DNA from: Blastococcus saxobsidens DD2
Lineage (GTDB): Bacteria > Actinomycetota > Actinomycetes > Mycobacteriales > Geodermatophilaceae
Length of the DNA stretch: 64,000 nt
NCBI RefSeq assembly: GCF_000284015.1
Contig: NC_016943.1
Coordinates: 1,901,541-1,965,540, forward strand
Direction of reading: 5' to 3'
Both the position numbers and the translations under genes were made by a program. Under the pieces are notes generated by a model. It made no database searches and was not told where the DNA came from. It was given only the letters and a program-made list of their open reading frames with translations. Positions 3,110 to 64,000 of the stretch are shown here, one piece after another (the first letter of the stretch is position 1; the number at the start of each line of letters is the position of its first letter).

Positions 3110-3931
3110 GTGACCGTGCAGCTCGGGAAGGTCCTCGCCGCCCTCGACGCCCGCTACGACCCCGCGCTCGCCGAGAGCTGGGACGCCGTCGGCCTGGTGT
3201 GCGGCGACCCGGCGGAGGAGGTGCGGCGGGTGGTCTTCGCCGTCGACCCCACGGCGGCCGTCGTCGACGAGGTGGTCGAGACCGGCGCGCAGCTGCTGGT
3301 CACCCACCACCCGCTGTTCCTCACGCCCGTCCACGGGGTGCCGGCCGACGACCCCAAGGGCCGGCTGGTGCACCGGCTGGTGCGGGCCGGCGCCGCGCTG
3401 TTCGTCGCCCACACCAACGCCGACCGCGCGCCCGACTCCGGGGTGAACGCCGCGCTGGCCGGCGTCCTCGGGCTCGTCGACGCCGTTCCCCTCCAACCGG
3501 TCCCGGACGATCCCCGGGCGGGCCTGGGGCGGGTCGGCCGGCTGCCGGAGCCGATGACCCTCCGGGAGTTCGCGGGGCGGGCCGCCGCGGCGCTGCCGGC
3601 CACCGCCGGCGGGGTGCGGACCGCCGGCGATCCGGACCGGATCGTCCGCACGGTCGCGGTCTGCGGCGGCAGCGGCGGCTCACTGCTCGGTGCGGCGGCC
3701 GCCGCCGGCGCCGACGTGCTGCTCACCAGCGACCTGAAGCACCACCCGGTGTCCGACGCCCTGGAGGTGCCCGGCCCGGCGCTGTGCGACGTGGCGCACT
3801 ACGCCTCCGAGTGGCCGTGGCTGCCGGTCGCCGCCGAGGTCCTGCGCGGGGACCTCGGCGGCCGGGTGGCGGTCGCCGTCTCGACCCGGCGGACCGATCC
3901 GTGGAGCCACCGGGCGGACGCGCCCGGGTGA
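3110..3931 (+). CDS. NIF3-like dinuclear metal-centre protein
   Basis: A 273-residue member of the NIF3/YbgI family, which forms a hexameric toroid with two metal ions per subunit and is often named GTP cyclohydrolase 1 type 2; its true role is unsettled. Family metal ligands are visible: HH in VTHHPLF, HTNAD, and a C-terminal His/Glu pair in CDVAHYASEWP. GTG at 3110 is chosen because the family's N-terminus begins there and TACCCT at 3096-3101 is a plausible -10 box, which would leave almost no leader. It may begin a short run with the genes below, though its neighbour is convergent. Confidence 0.9.
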   Translation: MTVQLGKVLAALDARYDPALAESWDAVGLVCGDPAEEVRRVVFAVDPTAAVVDEVVETGAQLLVTHHPLFLTPVHGVPADDPKGRLVHRLVRAGAALFVAHTNADRAPDSGVNAALAGVLGLVDAVPLQPVPDDPRAGLGRVGRLPEPMTLREFAGRAAAALPATAGGVRTAGDPDRIVRTVAVCGGSGGSLLGAAAAAGADVLLTSDLKHHPVSDALEVPGPALCDVAHYASEWPWLPVAAEVLRGDLGGRVAVAVSTRRTDPWSHRADAPG

Positions 3932-3940
3932 GGGTCCGGT

Positions 3941-4720
3941 CTATCCGTGGCCGGCGGCCTTCAGCGCCTGGACGCAGGCGCGTTCCAGGCTCCGCTGACG
4001 GCGCATCCGGGCGAACAGCCCCGGCACCGGCTCCAGCTCGCGGGTGGCGGCGGGCCGGACCGCGGTCAGCCGGCCGTCGGCGTACCGGCCGGTGGTGGTG
4101 TGCACCGTCCAGCGCTCGACATCGGGCACCGACAGCTCCTGGCCGATCAACACTGCCGGGCCGGAGGCATCCGGAGGCCCGTCGAGCACCGGCAGGGGAT
4201 CGGCGTCCCAGTCGGGGACCCCGACGGTGCGGACGTGCAGTCCACCGTCGTCGACGCCCAGGACGGCGTCCGCGGGCCCGTCGCGGCGCCCGCACGGGAC
4301 GACGTCGGCGGGCTCGAGCACGAGCACCAGGCGCGGGAGGTACCACCAGTGCTCGCGGCGCAGCATGGGGGAGTCCGCCAGGGCCCGCGCCGGCGGGTGC
4401 TTGCGGAGTTCCTGGTCCAGCAGCTCCTCGGAGAACAGGCTGCCGTCGCCGTCCTCGACGAGGGTGAGGCGGCCGGCGGCCACCAGCGGGGCCCACCGGG
4501 AGCCGGCGAGCCGGGGATCGGAGAGAACGAGCGCCGCCGCGCCGCTCGCCGCGGCCGCACGGGCGGTCTCCACGTGCGCCCAGGGCAGCGCGACCGTCGG
4601 CTTCCCGCCCAGGAGCAGGGGGACGACGCCGATGGCCGCCGGCGGCCCCTCCGGCGTCCGCCATAACAGTTCGGCTACGCCCGCCGAGCGAACTGCGGCT
4701 GCAACACTTGTGGCGTCCAT
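3941..4720 (-). CDS. Hypothetical protein, 259 aa
   Basis: I do not recognise this protein with certainty. It is soluble, with no signal peptide or membrane segment, alternating short strands and loops, and a conserved-looking HWWYLPRLVLVLEP stretch mid-protein. The layout is faintly like FMN-binding split-barrel (pyridoxamine-phosphate-oxidase-like) proteins, but no diagnostic motif is visible. Codon use is typical of the region and the frame is open throughout, so it is a real gene. It starts 63 bases from the divergent cstA start, which suggests a shared control region, and runs tail-to-tail with the NIF3-like gene with 9 bases between them. Confidence 0.75.
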   Translation of the reverse strand: MDATSVAAAVRSAGVAELLWRTPEGPPAAIGVVPLLLGGKPTVALPWAHVETARAAAASGAAALVLSDPRLAGSRWAPLVAAGRLTLVEDGDGSLFSEELLDQELRKHPPARALADSPMLRREHWWYLPRLVLVLEPADVVPCGRRDGPADAVLGVDDGGLHVRTVGVPDWDADPLPVLDGPPDASGPAVLIGQELSVPDVERWTVHTTTGRYADGRLTAVRPAATRELEPVPGLFARMRRQRSLERACVQALKAAGHG

Positions 4721-4783
4721 CGCCTGGTTGTCTACTCCCCTCGGACGGCGGCGACGGAGCCGCCCTCGGACCAGGGAGCCGCT

Positions 4784-6579
<1,796 letters not shown>

Positions 6580-48122: not shown

Positions 48123-49463
48123 ATGGACCGACAGCAGGAATTCGTCCTGCGGACCCTGGAAGAGCGCGACATCCGCTTCGTGCGGCTGTGGTTCACCGAC
48201 GTCTCGGGCTATCTCAAGGCCGTCGCCGTGGCCCCGGCGGAGATCGAGGCAGCGTTCGCCGAGGGCATCGGCTTCGACGGCTCGGCGATCGAGGGCTTCG
48301 CCCGCGTCTACGAGTCCGACATGGTGGCCAAGCCTGACCCGGGCACGTTCCAGGTGATGCCCGCGCGCGAGGGGCGGGCCAGCGACACCGCCCGGATGTT
48401 CTGCGACATCACCCTGCCCGACGGCTCACCGTCGTGGGCCGATCCCCGCCACGTGCTGCGCCGGGCCCTGGCCAAGGCCGCCGACATGGGGTTCACCTTC
48501 TACACCCACCCCGAGATCGAGTTCTTCCTGCTGAAGGACCTGCCCACCGACGGCAGCGCCCCGCAGCCGGCCGACACCGGCGGCTACTTCGACCTGTCCA
48601 CGCACAACGTGGCGCACGACTTCCGCCGGGAGGCCGTGTTCGCGCTGGAGGCCATGGGCATCTCGGTGGAGTTCAGCCACCACGAGGTCGCGCCCGGCCA
48701 GCAGGAGATCGACCTGCGGTACGCCGACGCGCTGTCGATGGCCGACAACATCATGACGCTGCGGCACGTCGTCCGTGAGGTCGCGCTTGCCCAGCAGGTG
48801 CACGCCACCTTCATGCCCAAGCCGTTCACCGAGCTGGCCGGCTCGGCCATGCACACGCACGTGTCGCTGTTCGAGGGCGACCGCAACGCCTTCCACGACC
48901 CGGCCGACCCGATGCGGTTGTCGACCACCGGCAAGCAGTTCATCGCCGGCCTGCTCACCCACGCCCGCGAGATGACCGCGGTCACCAACCAGACGGTCAA
49001 CTCCTACCGGAGGCTGCTCGCCGGCACCGAGGCGCCGACGGCGGCGACGTGGGGCCGGGCGAACCGCTCCGCGCTGGTCCGTCTGCCGTCGTACAAGCCG
49101 AGCAAGGCGCAGTCGGCCCGTGTGGAGGTGCGCTCGCCGGACTCGGCCTGCAACCCCTACCTGACCTTCGCCGTCATCCTGGCCGCCGGGCTGCGGGGGA
49201 TCGAAAAGGGCTACGAGCTCCCGCCCGAGGCCGAGGACGACGTCTGGTCGCTCACCGACACCGAGCGCCGCGCCGCCGGCTACGAGGACCTCCCGGTCTC
49301 CCTCGGGGAGGCGCTGACCGCCATGCAGGGCAGCGAGCTGGTGGCCGAGACGCTCGGCGAGCACGTGTTCGAGTTCTTCCTCCGCAACAAGTGGGAGGAG
49401 TTCAACTCCTACCGGCAGAACGTCACCCCGTTCGAGCTGCAGCGCTACCTGCCCGGCCTGTGA
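48123..49463 (+). CDS. glnA2: Glutamine synthetase GlnA2-type
   Basis: A 446-residue type I glutamine synthetase, the length of mycobacterial GlnA2. Signature blocks: DVSGYLKAVAVAP, GFDGSAIEGFARVYESDMVAKPD, EIEFFLLKD, HHEVAPGQQEIDLRY, GSAMHTHVSLF, NSYRRLLAGTEAP and NRSALVRLPSY. The adenylylation loop tyrosine motif of GlnA1 (NLYDLPPEE) is replaced by KGYELPPEAEDDVW, so GlnE control is doubtful. ATG 48123 gives the standard MDRQQEFVLRTLEERDIR start; ATG 48114 is possible. Confidence 0.93.
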   Translation: MDRQQEFVLRTLEERDIRFVRLWFTDVSGYLKAVAVAPAEIEAAFAEGIGFDGSAIEGFARVYESDMVAKPDPGTFQVMPAREGRASDTARMFCDITLPDGSPSWADPRHVLRRALAKAADMGFTFYTHPEIEFFLLKDLPTDGSAPQPADTGGYFDLSTHNVAHDFRREAVFALEAMGISVEFSHHEVAPGQQEIDLRYADALSMADNIMTLRHVVREVALAQQVHATFMPKPFTELAGSAMHTHVSLFEGDRNAFHDPADPMRLSTTGKQFIAGLLTHAREMTAVTNQTVNSYRRLLAGTEAPTAATWGRANRSALVRLPSYKPSKAQSARVEVRSPDSACNPYLTFAVILAAGLRGIEKGYELPPEAEDDVWSLTDTERRAAGYEDLPVSLGEALTAMQGSELVAETLGEHVFEFFLRNKWEEFNSYRQNVTPFELQRYLPGL

Positions 49464-50308: not shown

Positions 50309-53300
50309 CCGCGCCCCAGGCGGAGATCCCGCGCCGGGCGACCGTCCGGCTGGTCCGCTTCGGCTTCGAGGACGGCGAGCGCGCCGCCCGGCTGCTGTCG
50401 GACTCGTCCCTGGGCCTGTGGGACCTGGAGCGCAACGAACCGGCCGATCCGGAGGCCGGCCCGGTGGTCGCGGCGCTGGCCCGTGCCGGCGATCCCGACC
50501 TCGCCGTCCGGTCGCTGCACCGGCTGGTGGAGGCGCTCGACGTCGCCGACGACAGCGGGGGAGCGGCCGCGACGCTGCTGGCCCGGCTCCGCGGGTCCGG
50601 GCAGCTGCGGGGTCGCCTGCTCGCCGTCCTGGGCGCCAGCTCCGGCCTGGCCGACCACCTGGCTGCCCATCCGCTGGACTGGGACGTCCTCGACGACGAG
50701 GAGCACGGGCCGAGCCGGCCGACCCCGCACGCCCTGGAGCAGCAGATGCTGCGCGCCGTCGGTGCCGACCCGGACGACCCGCCCTGGGGCGTCCGGCTGG
50801 GCAAGGGGGCGCCCGACGCCGCTCGGGAGCGCGTGACCGGGCTCCGGCTGGCCTACCGGCGGGCGATCCTCTCCCTCGCGGGGCGAGACCTGGCCGACGG
50901 CGTGCCGGCCGAAGAGGCCGCCGCGGAGCTCGCCGACATCGCCGCCGCCGTGCTCAGCGCCGGGCTGGCGGTCGCCGTCGCGGAGCAGCCGGCCGACGCC
51001 GCGGCCTGCCGGCTGGCGGTCATCGCCCTCGGCAAGACCGGTGGGCGGGAGCTGAACTACGTCAGCGACGTCGACGTGGTGTTCGTGGCCGAGCCGGTCG
51101 ATCCCGCGGGGTGGGCGGGTTCAGAGGTCGACGCAGCCCCCGCGCTGGCGAGCGCGACGCGGGTGGCCGCGGCGCTCATGCGGATCTGCCGGGAGGCGGC
51201 CTGGGAGGTCGACGCGGCGTTGCGCCCCGAGGGCAAGGCGGGCGCCCTGGTCCGCACCGTCGCCGGGCACGCCGCCTACTACGACCAGTGGGCCGACACC
51301 TGGGAGTTCCAGGCGCTGCTCAAGATGCGCCCGGTCGCAGGTGACCCGGATCTGGGCCGCTCCTACGTCGAGGCGCTGTGGCCGCTGGTGTGGAAGGCCG
51401 GCGACCGGCCCGGCTTCGTCGGCGAGGTCCAGGCGATGCGCCGCCGGGTGGAGGCCAACATCCCTCCGGCGCAGGCCGAGCGGGAGCTGAAGCTGGGCCG
51501 GGGCGGCCTGCGCGACGTCGAGTTCGCCGTCCAGCTGCTGCAGATGGTGCACGGGCGGGTCGACCCCGGCCTGCGCGTGGGCGGGACGCTGCCGGCGCTC
51601 ATGGCGCTGTCGGCCGGCGGCTACGTCGGGCGGGACGACGCCGCGACGCTCATCGCCTCCTACCGGTTCCTGCGCACGGTCGAGCACCGGCTCCAGCTGC
51701 TCCGCCTGCGCCGCACCCACCTGCTGCCCACCGACGAGCAGCAGCTGCGCTGGCTCGCCCGCTCCCTGGGCTACAAGCCCGACCACCGCGGCGACGCCGT
51801 CGCCGTGCTGCGGGCCGAACTGGCGCTGCACACCCGCGAGGTGCGCCGGCTGCACGAGAAGCTGTTCTACCGGCCGCTGCTCTCCGCGGTCGCGCGGGTG
51901 CCCGGCGAGCAGCTGCAGCTCGGATCGAAGGCGGCCGGTGAGTGGCTGCGGGCGCTGGGCTTCGCCGATCCCGATGGGGCGCTGCGGCACCTGGGTGCGC
52001 TCACCGGTGGGGTCTCCCGCTCGGCGTCGATGCAGAAGTACCTGCTGCCGGTGCTGCTGCAGACCTTCGCGTCCTGCCCCAACCCCGACGCCGGGCTGCT
52101 GGCCTACCGGCAGGTCAGCGAAGCCCTCGGCGGAAACCAGTGGTTCCTGCGGCTGCTGCGCGACGAGGGCCAGGTGGCCGAGCGCCTCGCCCAGCTCCTG
52201 GGCTCCAGCCAGTACGTGGCCTCCCTGCTCACCCGCACCCCCGAGGCGCTGCGGTTGCTCGTCGACGACGCCGAGCTCGCGCCCCGGACGGCGGCCACGC
52301 TGGCCAAGGCCTGGCGGCAGGCCGCCGGGCGGGCGCCCGATCCGCAGGCCGGCATCCGGGTCATCCGCGGCCTGCGCCGGCATGAGCTGCTGCGGATCGC
52401 CTCCGCCGACCTGCTGGGCCGCCTGGACGTGCACCAGGTGGGGCGGGCGCTCACCGACGTCGCCGTCGCCACCCTGCAGGCCGGGCTGGACACCGCGCTG
52501 CGGGCGCACGCGCTCGAGGCCCACGTCGAGGTCGCGGATCTGCCCATGGACCTCGCCGTCATCGGGATGGGGCGCCTGGGCGGGGGAGAGATGGGCTTCG
52601 GCTCCGACGCCGACGTGCTGTTCGTGCACCGGCCCCGGGCGGTGCGGGGGGAGAGCACTGCCGACGAGACGAAGGCGACGGCCGCGGCGAACGCGGTGGC
52701 GCACACCCTCCGTCGGCTGCTCGCCGAACCCGGGCCGGATCCGGCGTTCGAGGTGGACGCCGACCTGCGGCCCGAGGGCCGGCAGGGTCCGCTGGTGCGC
52801 AGCCTCTCGGCGTTCCAGGAGTACTACGAGCGCTGGGTGTCGGTGTGGGAGGTGCAGGCGCTGCTGCGTGCGGTACCGGTGGCCGGCGACGAGGACCTCG
52901 GTGCCGCGTTCACCGACCTCGTCGACCCCATCCGCTACCCGGCCGCCGGGCTGTCCGCGGAGCAGGTCGCCGAGATCCGCCGGATCAAGGCCCGCGTGGA
53001 GCGGGAGCGGCTCCCCCGGGGCGCCGATCCGGCCACCCACACCAAGCTGGGCCGCGGCGGCCTCGCCGACGTCGAGTGGACCGTCCAGCTCCTGCAGCTC
53101 CAGCACGCCGCCGAGCTCCCCTCGCTCCAGGCGCCCTCCACGCCCGGGGCGCTGGATGCGCTCACGGCGGCGTCGCTGCTCGATCCCGACCGGGCCGACG
53201 CGCTGCGGTCCGCGTGGGAGCTGGCGACCCGCGCGCGGAACGCGATCTTCCTGGTGCGTGGTCGCCCCAGCGACCAGCTGCCCCGGCCGGGACTGGAGCT

Positions 53301-57256: not shown

Positions 57257-58102
57257 ATGACTTCTCTCTCCGACCGCGTCGTGCTCGTCACCGGGGGCAG
57301 CGCGGGTATCGGCCGCTCCACGGTCACCCGGCTGGCCGCCGACGGCGCCCGCGTCGTCACCTGCGCCCGCCACGGGGACCGGCTGGAGGAGGCGTTCGGC
57401 GGCCTGCCCGGGGTGTGCACGACCGTGGCCGACGTCGCCGACGCCGGTGACCGGGCCGCCCTCCTGGACCGGGTGCTGGACGAGCACGGCCGGCTGGACG
57501 CCGTCGTGCACAACGCCGGAGTCGGCTGGGCCGGGCTGCTCGAGGACATGCCGGGAGAGTCCGTCGAGGGCATCGTCGCGCTGAACCTGACCGGCGTCGT
57601 CGAGCTGACCCGGCTGGCGCTCCCGCATCTGCTCCGGTCGGCCGCCGACCGGGGGCGGGCCGACGTCGTCATGGTCTCCTCCGTCGCCGCCTGGTCGCAG
57701 GTGCCGCCGCTGACGGTGTACTCCGCCACCAAGGCCGGGGTGCAGGGCTTCGCGCGCGGCCTGCGCCGGGAGGTGACCACTCGCGGCATCCGCGTGCACA
57801 CCGTCAATCCGTTCTTCGTGGAGACCGAGTGGCTGGCCCGGGGCCACGGCCACCCCCCGGTGTCGGGCGAGGACGCCCGCGGCCGGCTGTCCCGCGGCAT
57901 CTCGCCCGACCGGGTGGCCGACCGGATCGGCGGCCTGTTGCGCAGCCCGCGGTCCCGGACCGTGACGGTGCCGCGCTGGGCGGGCCTGGCCCGGCTCGGC
58001 GAGGCGCCGCCGGTGGACCGGGTGCTGGACCGTCTGCTGTCGGGAAACGCCGACCGGATCCGCCGGATCGCCGCCCGGACGGTGGCCGAGCGGGTGGACT
58101 GA
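57257..58102 (+). CDS. Short-chain dehydrogenase/reductase
   Basis: A 281-residue classical SDR. The NAD(P) site is TGGSAGIGRSTV, then VVHNAGVG, a catalytic Ser in MVSSVAAW and YSATKAGVQ with Tyr and Lys. The Arg in TCARHGDR after strand 2 favours NADP. The C-terminal 50 residues with WAGLARLGEAPPVDRVLDRLL are typical of the retinol-dehydrogenase-like group. GGGTAG at 57242-57247 may be a promoter box. Confidence 0.92.
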   Translation: MTSLSDRVVLVTGGSAGIGRSTVTRLAADGARVVTCARHGDRLEEAFGGLPGVCTTVADVADAGDRAALLDRVLDEHGRLDAVVHNAGVGWAGLLEDMPGESVEGIVALNLTGVVELTRLALPHLLRSAADRGRADVVMVSSVAAWSQVPPLTVYSATKAGVQGFARGLRREVTTRGIRVHTVNPFFVETEWLARGHGHPPVSGEDARGRLSRGISPDRVADRIGGLLRSPRSRTVTVPRWAGLARLGEAPPVDRVLDRLLSGNADRIRRIAARTVAERVD

Positions 58103-58850: not shown

Positions 58851-59390
58851 GTGCCGTTCGAGGTCGGGGACGTCGTCGTCCGGACGCTGGACGACGAGCA
58901 CTGGGGCGTGGTCGAGCCGCTGGTCTACCGCGGGACGCGCGACCGCTTCGTCGTGCCCGCCGGGTTCCGGACCGACTTCGCCACGGTGCCGCGGGTCGTG
59001 GTCTGGCTGGTGCCGCGCTTCGGCCGGTACACGGCGGCGGCGATCCTGCACGACTGGCTCTGCACCGTCGGCATCGAGAGCGGCGTCGTGACCGCGCGGG
59101 AGGCCGACGGGGTCTTCCGCCGGGTCCTGCGGGAGAGCGGCGTGCCGGTGGTCCGTCGCTGGCTGATGTGGTGCGGGGTGCGGTGGGGCGCCTTCGCGGA
59201 CCCCGTGCGCGGGACGGGCTGGTGGCGGAGCGCGCCGGGGGTGCTCGCCATCTCGCTAATGGCGGCGCCGGTGGTCGTGCCACCTGGCCTGCTCATCGCG
59301 GCGGCCCTGCTGGTCTACGGGGCCGTCGAAGCCGTGGTCGCGCTGCTCACCGGCTCGTTGCCGGAGGACGCCGGATCCTTCCGCACCTGA
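58851..59390 (+). CDS. DUF1353 protein with membrane tail
   Basis: A 179-residue protein. Residues about 25-100 carry the DUF1353 pattern: FVVPAGFRTDFATVPRVVVWLVPRFGRYTAAAILHDWLC, then ADGVFRRVLRESGV. The domain also occurs in phage proteins. Two hydrophobic helices near the C-terminus (about 130-170) suggest membrane attachment. GTG start with GGGGAGGGG upstream. Function is unknown. Confidence 0.85.
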   Translation: MPFEVGDVVVRTLDDEHWGVVEPLVYRGTRDRFVVPAGFRTDFATVPRVVVWLVPRFGRYTAAAILHDWLCTVGIESGVVTAREADGVFRRVLRESGVPVVRRWLMWCGVRWGAFADPVRGTGWWRSAPGVLAISLMAAPVVVPPGLLIAAALLVYGAVEAVVALLTGSLPEDAGSFRT

Positions 59391-59479: not shown

Positions 59480-61039
59480 ATGCCCCTGAAGTACCCGACC
59501 CAGCCCGGAGACATCGACCATCTGATCGCCGACGATCACGCGATCGTCGAGCGGCAGTTCCAGCACCTGGAGGCCGGCCGCGGCAACCGCCGGGTCCTGG
59601 TCGACCAGGTGGTCGCCGAGTTGTCGATGCACGCCTTCGCCGAGGAGACGGTGCTCTACCCGATCTGGCCCGAGATCGGCATGACCGACGAGCACGACGA
59701 CGCCGAGCACGAGCACCAGGAGATCAAGGAGCTGCTCGTCACCCTGGGCCGCACGGAGCCGGAGGAGACGGAGTTCGAGGAGACGCTGTCGAAGCTGATC
59801 GGGCTGGTCCGCCACCACGTGGAGGACGAGGAGTCCGACGAGCTGCCGGAGTTTCGGTCCAAGGCCGGGGCCGAGCGGATGGCCCAGCTGGGCAAGGAGT
59901 TCCTCACCGCCAAGCGGCGCGCGCCGACGCGGCCGCACCCGAACGCGCCGTCGGAGGGGCTCGCCGAGAAGGTCGCCGGTGCGGTGGCCAAGCCGCTGGA
60001 CATGGCCCGCGACGTGGCCTCGGGGAAGCAGAAGGAGCTCGCCACCGACCCGAGCGGTCTCCTCGACCCGCAGGCCCAGGAGCTGCTCGATGCCTTCTCC
60101 TCGCTCGGGCCGCTGCCGTACGAGGTGCTGACGCCGGCCGAGGCGCGCAAGCAGCCCGGCCCGAAGCAGGCGGTGGAGAAGGTGATGAAGGAGCGGGGCA
60201 TCGAGGGCCCGGAGCCGGTCGGCTCCGTGGACGACCTGATGATCCCCGACGGCGCCGGCGGGGAGCAGCGGCTGAGGGTCTACAAGCCGGCCGGTACCTG
60301 GCCCGGTGCGCTGCCGATCATCATGTGGATCCACGGCGGCGGATGGGTGCTGTTCGACATCGACGACCACTACGACGCCTCCTGCCGCGGGCTGTGCAAC
60401 AAGACCGGCGCCATCGTGGTCAGCCCCGACTACCGGCGGGCGCCGGAGGCCGTCTTCCCGGCGTCGCACGACGACGTCCTGACCGCCTGGACCTGGGTGC
60501 GGGAGAACGCGGCGCAGATCGGCGGCGACCCGGCCCGGATGGCGATCGGCGGGGAGTCCGTCGGCGGCAACATGGCACCGGCCACCGCGCTCACGCTGGC
60601 CGTCAACGCCCAGCCGCTGCCGCTGGCGCAGGTCTGCGTCTACCCGCTGACCACCGGTGAGCAGTTCGGTGAGTCGATGGAGGACGCCGCCGATGCCCGG
60701 CCGCTCAACCGCGCGCTGCTGTCCTGGATGGCGATGCACGCCTTCGAGGGCAAGCCGGAGGCGGCGAAGGACCCGCGGATCGCGCTGCTGGACTGGACGC
60801 CGGAGCAGCTGGCCGCCATGCCGCCAACGCTGGTCATCACCGACGAGCGCGATCCGCTGCGCAGCCAGGGCGAGGAGTTCGCCCGCAAGCTGGAGGCGGC
60901 CGGTGTCCCCACGGCGAGCACCCGGTACGACGGCGTCTCGCACGAGTTCTTCGGCGCGGCCGCGGTGCTGGACAAGGCCGAGCAGGCGCAGCAGGAGGCG
61001 GCGCAGCACTTCCGGCGGGCCTTCGGCACGGCGGGCTGA
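59480..61039 (+). CDS. Hemerythrin-esterase fusion protein
   Basis: A 519-residue two-domain protein. Residues 10-145 are a hemerythrin HHE domain (DIDHLIADDHAIVERQFQ; MHAFAEETVLYP; EHEHQEIKELL; LVRHHVEDEESDELP) supplying His/Glu ligands for a diiron site. After a Pro/Lys linker, residues about 245-515 are an HSL-type alpha/beta hydrolase with IHGGGWV, nucleophile GESVGGN, Asp in TDERDPLR and His in GVSHEFF. Both active sites look complete. GGAGGC precedes the ATG. A stress-type promoter motif lies upstream. Confidence 0.92.
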   Translation: MPLKYPTQPGDIDHLIADDHAIVERQFQHLEAGRGNRRVLVDQVVAELSMHAFAEETVLYPIWPEIGMTDEHDDAEHEHQEIKELLVTLGRTEPEETEFEETLSKLIGLVRHHVEDEESDELPEFRSKAGAERMAQLGKEFLTAKRRAPTRPHPNAPSEGLAEKVAGAVAKPLDMARDVASGKQKELATDPSGLLDPQAQELLDAFSSLGPLPYEVLTPAEARKQPGPKQAVEKVMKERGIEGPEPVGSVDDLMIPDGAGGEQRLRVYKPAGTWPGALPIIMWIHGGGWVLFDIDDHYDASCRGLCNKTGAIVVSPDYRRAPEAVFPASHDDVLTAWTWVRENAAQIGGDPARMAIGGESVGGNMAPATALTLAVNAQPLPLAQVCVYPLTTGEQFGESMEDAADARPLNRALLSWMAMHAFEGKPEAAKDPRIALLDWTPEQLAAMPPTLVITDERDPLRSQGEEFARKLEAAGVPTASTRYDGVSHEFFGAAAVLDKAEQAQQEAAQHFRRAFGTAG

Positions 61040-61058
61040 GGAAACCAGGCGCGGACGC

Positions 61059-61097
61059 ACTGCGGCCCCCGGCCTTGACGAGGTCGGGGGCCGCAGT
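61059..61097. terminator. Two-way terminator shared with glnA remnant
   Basis: CTGCGGCCCCCGGCC pairs with GGTCGGGGGCCGCAG (one G-U pair) around a seven-base loop, between the esterase stop and the minus-strand glnA stop. It probably terminated both genes before glnA was split. Confidence 0.8.
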
Positions 61098-61108
61098 GGC
61101 GGTGGAAC

Positions 61109-61135
61109 TCAGATGTCGTAGTAGATCGCGAACTC
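61109..61135 (-). pseudogene. glnA: 3'-terminal remnant of glnA (type I glutamine synthetase)
   Basis: Reading the minus strand, codons end E-F-A-I-Y-Y-D-I-stop, the characteristic last residues of actinobacterial GlnA1 (EFALYYDV and similar). The residues before (TRG) no longer match the expected RPHPY/H, so only about 27 bases remain. With the shared terminator beside it and glnA2/glnE 8-13 kb away, this is the natural position of glnA1. The break point fits an attachment site (attL or attR) of an element integrated in the glnA 3' end. Confidence 0.65.
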
Positions 61136-61140
61136 CCCCC

Positions 61141-62009
61141 GCGTGATTGGGCACCTGTGGCTCTTCGTTGATATAGCGCCTGACCTGCACTTTCCTGGTT
61201 AGTGATGTTCGGAGACAGATGGGTCTTGTTGAACCTTTTGGGGACTGGATGGGGACTGGCGGCAGGCCCCCGGTGTCGGCGCGGCGCGCGGTTGGCTGCC
61301 TTGACCCATGGCTACGGAACGGAATCCGGCTCGCACGTCGGCACGCCCGCGGTATCGGCGACGCGCGTCCCACCCGATCAGCGTGCCGGCTGCCTCGGTC
61401 GCGGCAAGGGCGCTTCGCGTCCCTTCGGGATCGGCCTGCGGCCGACCCTTCCCTCGACCAGCGCCAGCCGGATCGGGCGGGTTGTGGGAAGCGCAGGGGA
61501 GTGTGGACGGCGAAGGTCTGTCAGTGGGTGGTCCCGTGTGGGGCCGGAAGCTCACTCGAAGGGCCGGCGTCCAGACGGATCCCTATTGGGTGACGGCGAA
61601 CGAGGCCTCCCACCTGTCCCTGAAGGCGGCTTCAGGGACACCCGGCCTCGGAGCGGTCACCGGGACGATCGCCGGGGTGAGCGACTCGTAGGCGGCTGAG
61701 GTGGGCGACGAGGTCGCGGCTCTCCACAAGGCGGAGTAGGACTCGTCGAGTTCCGGACGAGCCTCCTTCCTGTCCGTCCACTCCTCGGGTGCACTCAGCC
61801 GCTCGTCGGTCAGGCAGGAAAGCTGCGATGGCGGGTGTGGTCCGCGGCGACCACGCGCCCACCATGGCCCGTCGAGCCGCAGGTACAGAGTCCGTCAGAG
61901 GCTGTGAGCAGTCACCCCCTTATCACCCGGGTGGCGTGGCGTCTTGACATACCGACACAACGAGACTCAATGTACCGATGTATTGGTTCATTCAGTGAAC
62001 GGAGTTGCA
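61141..62009. other. Gene-poor junction region
   Basis: About 870 bases with no convincing gene in any frame; open frames here have no coding-like residue pattern. It holds a direct repeat GGGGACTGG-AT-GGGGACTGG (61240-61259), which could be an integrase arm site, a perfect 10-base stem GTCCCTGAAG/CTTCAGGGAC (61616-61639), and the promoter of the next operon at its end. GC content is lower than in the main part of the window. Confidence 0.6.
61944..62000 (+). promoter_or_regulatory. Promoter and operator of the YtrA-type operon
   Basis: TTGACA (61944-61949) is a consensus -35; a weak -10 (CAATGT, 61968-61973) follows at 18 bases. Between it and the start lies GTTCA-TTCAG-TGAAC (61986-62000), a perfect five-base inverted repeat with a five-base gap, well placed for repression by the GntR protein encoded in the same operon. 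Confidence 0.55.
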
Positions 62010-62972
62010 GTGACCGGAGTCCTGGCCGTCGGCCCGGTGGCCGTCTTCGTGCTGGTGGGTGTCGTGGTTCTGGTGGTGCTAGCAGCCACTGCAGTCAGAC
62101 GCAGGCAACTGGCGCCTGCAGTTGCCGATGCCCGGCGGTACGGCCTGTCCACCAACGGGCTCTCTGTGGCATTGGGGGGCGTCGCTGGCGTTGCCGTTGC
62201 CCTGGGAGACCTCGCCGGCCGTCTCGGATCGGGCGTGTCGATTGCGCTGGCACCGCTGGTGTTCGGCGTCGTGCACACCGCGGTCCTGGGTGTGGGCGAG
62301 AAGCTGTGGCCCCGTCCCCGTGGCGCGGTGCGAACTGCGGGTCTCACTCCGCGGCGCTTCCCGTCCAGTGTCCGGTGGCTGCGAACGATCTATGGCTCGG
62401 TGGTGCTGGTGGTCGTGGCAACGTGCGCCGCCGGTTGGTCCACGGCCGGCGCCGATGGTCGCTCGTTCACCACCACCCCGCCATCGCCTCCTGGACTGGA
62501 CGTGGTCGTTGGCCCCAGCACCACCGGCCCCTATCCCGGAGACGTTTTTGCGCTGCCCGCCCTCATCGGGACCGGCCTGCTCGTACTGCTCACCTGGCTG
62601 ACCGTGCAGGCTGCGCTGAATCGGTCGGCGGTGCCCGCCGACGAAGCGAGCGAGCGGACACTGCGGGGAGCCTCCATCCACCGCGTGCTGCGCGGCTCCA
62701 CCTCGGCCCTGCTGCTCCTGCTGGCTGGGCTGTGGTTCGTGGCAGGGGCGGCGCTCCACACTGCCGCCCAGGACACCTTGGTGGGCATCGAGGGGGCCAC
62801 CTACGTCATCGAGGGCGGGCCCGGACTCGAGGTGATCGGCGTTGCGGCGATGATCGCCGGGGGATTCGCCGCTGTCGCCGCACTGGTGCTGCTGCTCCTG
62901 CCCGCCCCGCGACTGCGGCCGGCACCTCCGGCCCCGCCGGCTGCCCAGACACCGTCACCGGTGGTGGTGTGA
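62010..62972 (+). CDS. Polytopic membrane protein in YtrA-type operon
   Basis: A 320-residue membrane protein with seven or eight hydrophobic helices and an outer loop (WSTAGADGRSFTTTPPSPPGL). No family recognised; the overall pattern is like the uncharacterised membrane proteins co-encoded with YtrA-type regulators. GTG 62010 follows GGAG at 62001-62004; GTG 61995 would lie inside the operator. A Pro/Ala tail ends the protein, whose stop overlaps the regulator start (GTGA). GC3 is slightly lower than in genes left of 61 kb. Confidence 0.75.
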   Translation: MTGVLAVGPVAVFVLVGVVVLVVLAATAVRRRQLAPAVADARRYGLSTNGLSVALGGVAGVAVALGDLAGRLGSGVSIALAPLVFGVVHTAVLGVGEKLWPRPRGAVRTAGLTPRRFPSSVRWLRTIYGSVVLVVVATCAAGWSTAGADGRSFTTTPPSPPGLDVVVGPSTTGPYPGDVFALPALIGTGLLVLLTWLTVQAALNRSAVPADEASERTLRGASIHRVLRGSTSALLLLLAGLWFVAGAALHTAAQDTLVGIEGATYVIEGGPGLEVIGVAAMIAGGFAAVAALVLLLLPAPRLRPAPPAPPAAQTPSPVVV

Positions 62973-63376
62973 CCGCCACCGACCCGGCACCGCTGACCCT
63001 TCGGATCGATGTCACCTCGGCGGTACCGGTCTACGAACAGCTGCGCACCCAGGTCAGCGCCCTCGTCAGTGCGCGGCGCCTTGTCCGCGGCGACCGGCTG
63101 CCCGCAGCCCGCGCGCTTGCCGCCGATCTTGGCATCGCCGTGGGAACCGTGGCACGGGCCTACCGGGAACTGGAGACCGGCGGGTGGGTCACCTCCCGCC
63201 GCAGGACCGGCACCGTCATCGCCGGACCGATGCAGACGAACGACCCCGCACCCAGCGGCGCAACGGCCTCGGACCAGGTCGAACGCGCCGCCGATCACCT
63301 CGTGCGAATCGGCCGGGCCACCGGCCTCGATGACGACGCCCTGCTCACCGCGCTGCGTGGTGCTCTCCTGCGCTGA
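62969..63376 (+). CDS. GntR-family regulator, YtrA subfamily
   Basis: A 135-residue regulator with a winged helix-turn-helix (PVYEQLRTQVSALVSARRLVRGDRLPAARALAADLGIAVGTVARAYRELETGGWVTSRRRTGTVIA) and only a short C-terminal dimer helix (about 95-135), the YtrA layout. YtrA proteins repress their own operon, typically with transport genes. It is coupled to the membrane protein and should bind the inverted repeat at 61986-62000. Confidence 0.88.
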   Translation: MTATDPAPLTLRIDVTSAVPVYEQLRTQVSALVSARRLVRGDRLPAARALAADLGIAVGTVARAYRELETGGWVTSRRRTGTVIAGPMQTNDPAPSGATASDQVERAADHLVRIGRATGLDDDALLTALRGALLR

Positions 63377-63779
63377 CACACCGGACTACTGATCAGGTCG
63401 GCTCACTGAGCTCCGCCCATGACACCCACCGAAGGCACGTGGGATGCCGCACCTTCAGGTGACCGCAGCAGGAGCGGGAATGTCTGGGCAGCATGGGGCG
63501 CTCGGCGGGGGCTGCGTCCGGTCAGCTGCCAGGTGCGGGGGTAGGTTCCAGCGCTGCAGCTTGTGGTCAGTCTCGCCCTCGTCCTCCAACTCGTCGGGGC
63601 CGATCGCACGCATGCGTCAGAACAGCAAGACGGTCATGAATCGCTCGTGCCGAGTGTCGGTGAGTGGACGCAATGGAACAAGAACGGCTCTCGACGGGCC
63701 ACCGTCGCAAGAGACGGCCGAGGGACCTCGGTGGTGTCCCTGAGCGCGCCGGCCGTTCTGGGACACCGGCGGAGGTTCC
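63377..63779. other. Region with no confident gene
   Basis: About 400 bases. The only coding-like stretch is on the minus strand at 63455-63613 (see separate entry). A second minus-strand fragment reading RPLTDTRHERFMTVLLF-stop ends at about 63618, just before it, without a clear start; both may be decayed genes. Confidence 0.5.
63455..63613 (-). CDS. Possible small ORF, 52 aa
   Basis: A minus-strand frame starting MRAIGPDELEDEGETDHKLQ has GC-rich third positions and an acidic, then Pro-rich composition. No family is recognised and no ribosome site is clear. It could be a real small protein or a gene fragment. Confidence 0.25.
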   Translation of the reverse strand: MRAIGPDELEDEGETDHKLQRWNLPPHLAADRTQPPPSAPCCPDIPAPAAVT

Positions 63780-64000
63780 TCAAAGCACGTTCGGCAAGGT
63801 GCGAACCACGAAGTGCTCGTCTACGAGTCGCCCGTCGCTGTAGAGCCGTAACCGGTAGAGCCCTGAGCCGTCGCCCTGCATCAGCGTCACCTTCTTTCGT
63901 TCGAAGTCCGCCCGCGCCTCCTCGGATGTCAGCCACCACGACTCTGACGGAGGTGGGCGCAGTCGGTGCGGAATGCGGACTTCGACGTGATGTTGTCCGG
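63780..64000 (-). CDS. Partial protein cut by window edge (C-terminus only)
   Basis: The last 72 codons of a minus-strand gene whose start lies beyond base 64000. It reads as sensible protein: HHVEVRIPHRLRPPP, SWWLTSEEARADFERKK, VTLMQGDGSGLYRLRLYSDG and RLVDEHFVVRTLPNVL, then TGA. Strand-turn-strand pattern; no family recognised. Because no start codon is in view it is easily missed by start-based gene finding. Confidence 0.6.
   Translation of the reverse strand, partial: GQHHVEVRIPHRLRPPPSESWWLTSEEARADFERKKVTLMQGDGSGLYRLRLYSDGRLVDEHFVVRTLPNVL

Follow-up and report, generated by a model that had tools for sequence, protein, structure and literature searches.

The window, by which we mean the whole 64,000-nucleotide stretch of DNA analysed here, covers bases 1901541-1965540 of the 4.875 Mb single-contig genome of Blastococcus saxobsidens DD2. 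Close to its right edge, the minus strand carries the final eight codons and the stop codon of glnA1, a glutamine synthetase gene (EFAIYYDI-stop, 61109-61135). Neither the window sequence nor the list of open reading frames holds a glnA reading that continues rightward, in agreement with the original prediction that the rest of the gene is absent there. An intact two-way terminator had also been noted just outside this orphan end, and a hairpin with 18-bp stems, one mismatch and a 5-nt loop is found at 61058-61098 (arms 61058-61075 and 61081-61098). It is the former bidirectional hairpin of glnA1, which now stands 14.4 kb away from that gene. The genes glnA2 (48144-49451) and glnE (about 50614-52914) are near, as had been guessed. 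The plus-strand gene just outside the orphan end (59480-61039) encodes a hemerythrin domain (4e-9) fused to an alpha/beta hydrolase (9.2e-58).

Positions 61136-64000 hold the left 2.9 kb of a 14,402-bp element, the remainder of which lies to the right of the window (window-equivalent 64001-75510, locus L008). A hydrophobic protein with no family assigned and no Pfam match is encoded on the plus strand at 61944-62972; the open reading frame list gives it a TTG start, and the true start may be later. The next plus-strand gene, likely coupled to it, encodes a GntR-family regulator (62969-63376; Pfam GntR 2.5e-12 on L008:2950-3417). The minus-strand open reading frame at 63780-64000 extends beyond the right edge of the window; it is the 3' portion of the gene for a 256-aa protein (L008:3821-4591) with neither a Pfam nor a PADLOC match.

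Ends and gene content of the element

We searched the genome itself with the 30-base segment 61106-61135 and found only one further copy, identical in 29 of 30 bases. It lies 14,402 bp further right and forms the end of a complete glnA1. This live glnA1 end lies at genome positions 1977051-1977077, on the same contig as the orphan core. With up to three mismatches allowed, the 27-base core pattern occurs in two places in the genome, and the reversed control pattern in none. The element (14,402 bp between the two cores) is flanked by direct repeats that match the end of the host gene, with the 27-base core at both ends and one mismatch between the copies; the orphan copy at 61109-61135 is the attL core. 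The orphan copy reads FAIYYDI with an isoleucine and the live gene reads FAMYYDI with a methionine. The original prediction had proposed that an element entered the 3' end of glnA, leaving a short repeat here and the restored gene at its far end, and that the sequence beyond 64000 should hold an integrase gene and a full glnA with the same ending. Both the gene and the integrase are there. The drop in GC noted to the right holds for the left half of the element, where the value falls from 0.72-0.73 to 0.63-0.68, and fails for the right half, where it is 0.74; the element could therefore not be recognised by GC alone.

The direct repeat that had been noticed to the right of the orphan end consists of two copies of GGGGACTGG, at 61240-61248 and 61251-61259. 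Together they form the plus-strand pair GGGGACTGG-AT-GGGGACTGG with 11-bp spacing (61240-61259), which we presume to be the P' arm sites of the integrase. A like pair stands at the opposite end: on the attR side, GGGGACTGG and GGGGACTGA are found at window-equivalent 75446 and 75457, within the last codons of int. Pairs of GGGGACT are thus present inside both element ends. Of 15 elements of the family for which both ends were available, 13 carry a pair of the form G, G or C, GGACT inside attL and 13 carry one inside attR, and no arm-type pair was found elsewhere across 330,668 bases on both strands. The attL-side pairs always lie 130-134 bp from the core start (13 elements). The three closest elements have GGGGACT and five more distant Geodermatophilaceae elements have GCGGACT. 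Pairs of this type are presumably the arm sites of the integrase.

At the right end, facing glnA1, the element encodes a complete tyrosine integrase of 381 aa (Pfam Phage_integrase, 1e-15), which adjoins the att site and whose stop codon lies 26 bp before that of glnA1. The residues R215, K246, H311, R314, H337 and Y347 are invariant across an integrase alignment of eight rows, and we take them to be the catalytic residues. To the left of the integrase lies the element's own relaxase, as expected of an integrative and mobilizable element (IME), a 1215-aa TrwC protein with helicase domains (Pfam E-value 8.1e-52, TrwC positions 1-285 of 286). Also encoded to the left of the integrase are an HTH_17 protein, a HIRAN protein and a HipA-like protein (Pfam). 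The last two match PDC-M03B (2.4e-71) and PDC-M03A (1.8e-107), respectively, in PADLOC and are candidates for a defence pair.

A relaxase with helicase domains would also fit a full integrative conjugative element, of the T4SS type or the FtsK/TraB type (actinomycete integrative and conjugative element, AICE), and full conjugative elements are common in Actinobacteria according to the available part of a survey (PMC3218068). Among the 14 scanned proteins of the element, no Pfam match to a coupling protein, VirB4, FtsK/SpoIIIE or a replication initiator was found, nor any to mating-pair-formation genes, of which distant families could be missed by such a scan. Moreover, 14.4 kb leaves little room for a full conjugative element. 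We consider this reading very unlikely, and its AICE form, for which an FtsK/SpoIIIE-type transfer protein and a replication initiator are expected, is unsupported by the gene content.

We hold with high confidence that the 3' end of glnA1 was the target of site-specific recombination by an integrative element of 14.4 kb, which is most likely an IME with a MobF relaxase. The tyrosine integrase would have fused the core carried by the element to the last eight glnA1 codons and the stop codon after them, and the glnA1 reading frame stays whole because the core rebuilds the gene end. One core copy and the old hairpin would thereby have been left at the far end, which is the attL in the window. 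The integrase probably binds the arm pairs, the HTH_17 protein may serve as the excision factor, and a resident conjugative system would mobilize the element. A new hairpin between int and glnA1, which is strong in the window's element (z -5.0), may take over from the displaced one. A conserved replacement terminator at the new glnA1 end was considered for the clade as a whole and dropped, with z below -2 in only 12 out of 36 loci; the suggestion is kept for the window's element alone.

Empty sites and co-occurrence in relatives

We searched 60 genomes, including the own genome, and 46 of them carry the core pattern: eight have two copies and 38 have one. An integrase of at least 77% identity is found in nine of the 60 genomes, which are exactly the eight two-core genomes and one more (G032), in which the core pattern has no match. 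In two of the eight (G014 and G023) the two core copies lie on different contigs.

The comparison with relatives that lack the element gave the uninterrupted site that had been predicted. In ten out of 17 single-core relatives of the same genus, a hairpin of the window type (judged by eye), the core and glnA1 are contiguous. Other hairpins stand beside glnA1 in five of the 17, again judged by eye, and arm-site relics of the glnA1-element type in the remaining two, G007 (L049) and G016 (L062). The latter two genomes have no close integrase, and their arm relics look like decayed former occupants.

The genes on the left flank are likewise syntenic with glnA1 in relatives. In nine of the 12 relatives compared, the short-chain dehydrogenase encoded at 57257 has a homologue no more than about 10 kb downstream of glnA1; the other three lack it at a threshold of 66% identity or more. 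The protein at 58851 is found near glnA1 in five of the 12, and the immediate left neighbour (59480) in one, as fragments. In that relative (G020) the order is a 58206-like gene, the dehydrogenase, a 58851-like gene, the fragments of the 59480 hydrolase and then glnA1.

A 27-base repeat alone might also reflect chance resemblance or a segmental duplication of the end of glnA1, in both cases without any integration. Against this stand the exact core boundaries, the integrase at the junction, the perfect co-occurrence of integrase and second core over the 46 genomes, the arm pairs at their fixed distance and the empty sites. Duplication without integration was rejected on the boundaries, the integrase and the co-occurrence, and we give it next to no chance.

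One further locus shows a double arrangement. In G022 (L069), a C-terminal integrase fragment (1854-2048) abuts glnA1 and a whole integrase of 94% identity (3833-4978) follows about 2 kb further in; the fragment may be a remnant of an earlier occupant or the product of a rearrangement.

The integrase clade and its passengers

Scanning GTDB representatives turned up 262 relatives of the integrase, of which the best 80 were analysed; some of these loci come from the same genomes as among the 60 searched above. Within these best 80 of 262, 35 out of 38 integrases with at least 55% identity lie beside glnA1, in convergent orientation and 21 to 2035 bp away from it, with a complete glnA1 C-terminus, and none of the 42 with 41% identity or less does. 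Among the hosts are Geodermatophilaceae, Cellulomonas, Arthrobacter, Nocardioides, Microbacteriaceae, Demequina, Streptomyces and Streptosporangiaceae, and related integrases occupy the same place in other genera. An even sample of the class comprised 394 genomes; 11 of them have an integrase of this kind (E <= 1e-80), and in ten of the 11 it lies beside glnA1 (two at 50-51% identity), with two of the ten judged from a partial glnA1 at a contig edge.

Of the integrases with at least 55% identity, three do not lie next to glnA1. L091 is truncated, and L114 is a MAG contig on which the match begins at the end of the stretch analysed. In L107 (2458-5348), also a MAG contig, a clade integrase of 62% identity stands beside another gene that has no NCBIfam name, which is possibly a target switch or a MAG artefact. 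The 42 glnA1-linked rows of the tree are united with the three exceptions in a single group (support 100/100); taken alone, the glnA1-linked rows are not a group. The tree omits L115, which is too short, and L160 and L164, which repeat L092 and L107. No integrase of at least 60% identity was matched in the phage and plasmid collections, where the best among the matches listed reached about 28-33%.

A second core within the flank (10 kb at most) is clear in 10 of the 35 glnA1-linked loci and weak in one. Element sizes are 5.7-10.5 kb from these second cores and 9.1-19.1 kb from the whole-genome neighbours. Apart from the integrase, no gene family is shared by most of the 15 elements. Relaxases are present in the elements of G000 (the own genome), G003 and G022 and in L115. 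An HK97-type capsid gene is present in L077 (G019), L111 and L118 (Pfam 1.2e-36, 3.7e-27 and 3.2e-26), and L101 and L108 have genes that cluster with those capsids. L101 also has a tape-measure-like protein, and the G019 element a small terminase subunit; these phage genes come from a scan that covered part of the proteins of the other elements. These five elements (L077, L101, L108, L111 and L118), of about 9 kb at glnA1, may be phage satellites in Actinomycetota, judging from their genes. A second, distant tyrosine recombinase lies near the attL end in L076 (16780-18243) and L077 (8959-10437).

That the same integrase clade drives capsid-gene elements of roughly 9 kb gives some ground for reading the window's element, too, as satellite- or prophage-like rather than mobilizable. 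It has a full TrwC relaxase, however, and phage structural and packaging families, which are found in other elements of the clade, have no Pfam match among its 14 scanned proteins. This gene content does not support a satellite, and we regard such a reading as very unlikely. The integration reading draws on both cores, the intact integrase by glnA1, the arm-type pairs, the empty sites of relatives and the association of the clade with glnA1, all established at the level of sequence. Since relaxases are found in some elements and capsid genes in others, one integrase clade serves both conjugation-type and satellite-like elements. In our view the most interesting point is that, as far as gene content tells, relaxase elements and capsid-bearing elements share a glnA1-associated integrase clade across Actinomycetota.

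More distant integrases of the same superfamily are also present in the own genome, in ten further places among the matches listed, with 34-40% identity. In eight of the ten, a TrwC relaxase lies within 10 kb, and the genome appears to contain a series of sister MobF elements. Targets were assigned with ARAGORN and by eye for six of the ten places: two in tRNA-Arg, one each in tRNA-Ala and tRNA-Lys, and one each at the ychF and yajQ 3' ends. These sister pairs resemble the window's element in integrase superfamily and nearby relaxase and differ from it in their targets. In the scan, sister integrases stand beside the 3' ends of ychF (three scanned), menB, yajQ, sodN and an mmsA-like gene (L125, L134, L146, L152, L131, L157 and L127). 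No tRNA gene was found within 3.4 kb at the 42 loci with integrases of 35-41% identity, nor at the three exceptions. The idea that integrases of 35-41% identity avoid tRNA genes was dropped, as ARAGORN puts four of the ten own-genome places at or near tRNA genes.

Known systems and the meaning of the glnA1 site

According to the available part of PMC5704250, IMEs with a single tyrosine integrase target tRNA genes as well as housekeeping genes, the latter at their 3' ends, and leave them whole. The window's element resembles the IMEs at housekeeping 3' ends described there in its single tyrosine integrase, its target kept whole by a repeat, its own relaxase and the lack of any T4SS genes seen. 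It differs in its MobF/TrwC relaxase, whereas the canonical IMEs in that part of the paper have MobP, MobQ, MobV or MobC relaxases and the single actinobacterial case has MobV. Neither glnA nor glutamine is mentioned anywhere in the text of PMC5704250.

Nearly all tyrosine-integrase AICEs in the actinobacterial survey sit in tRNA genes, as far as its available part tells (PMC3218068). The original prediction that glnA is an unusual target compared with tRNA genes is fair for actinobacterial elements, but 3' ends of housekeeping genes are in general known as targets (PMC5704250, available part). With the AICEs of that survey, the element has in common an actinobacterial host, a tyrosine integrase at a gene 3' end and the sharing of a target gene by closely related integrases, but AICEs are defined there by FtsK-type transfer and replication initiators, neither of which was found in the window's element (PMC3218068, available part). 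The word glutamine is absent from the text of this survey. PAISt, an island of Streptomyces turgidiscabies, likewise lies in an actinobacterial host at the 3' end of a protein-coding gene, bacA; it differs in its 8-bp palindromic site, its much larger size and its target gene, according to the part of PMC4057263 available. In the available parts of PMC10256201 and PMC8907273 we recognised no integration site in glnA, and no report of glnA as an integration target was found in the literature searched, a scope that lies largely outside subscription papers. Targeting of a housekeeping-gene 3' end is thus a known strategy, and glnA as its target was not found described.

We tentatively propose, as a possibility that we would not favour as a whole, that the glnA1 3' end is the docking site of one integrase clade passed between unrelated kinds of elements and, at the same time, that the element may sense nitrogen through read-through from glnA1. 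The putative sensing would follow from the replaced 3' flank of glnA1 and the convergent placement of int. As regards the docking site on its own, gene content and locus comparison largely support one that appears to be shared across Actinomycetota by MobF mobilizable elements, capsid-bearing satellites and others.

A defined att site, an integrase and an arm geometry at a conserved nitrogen-assimilation gene could become integrating vectors for genera that have few. The clade is also a clean case of one group of integrases with carrier elements that have different ways of moving. Furthermore, the related integrases at ychF, yajQ, menB and tRNA genes form a natural series on how tyrosine integrases change their targets.
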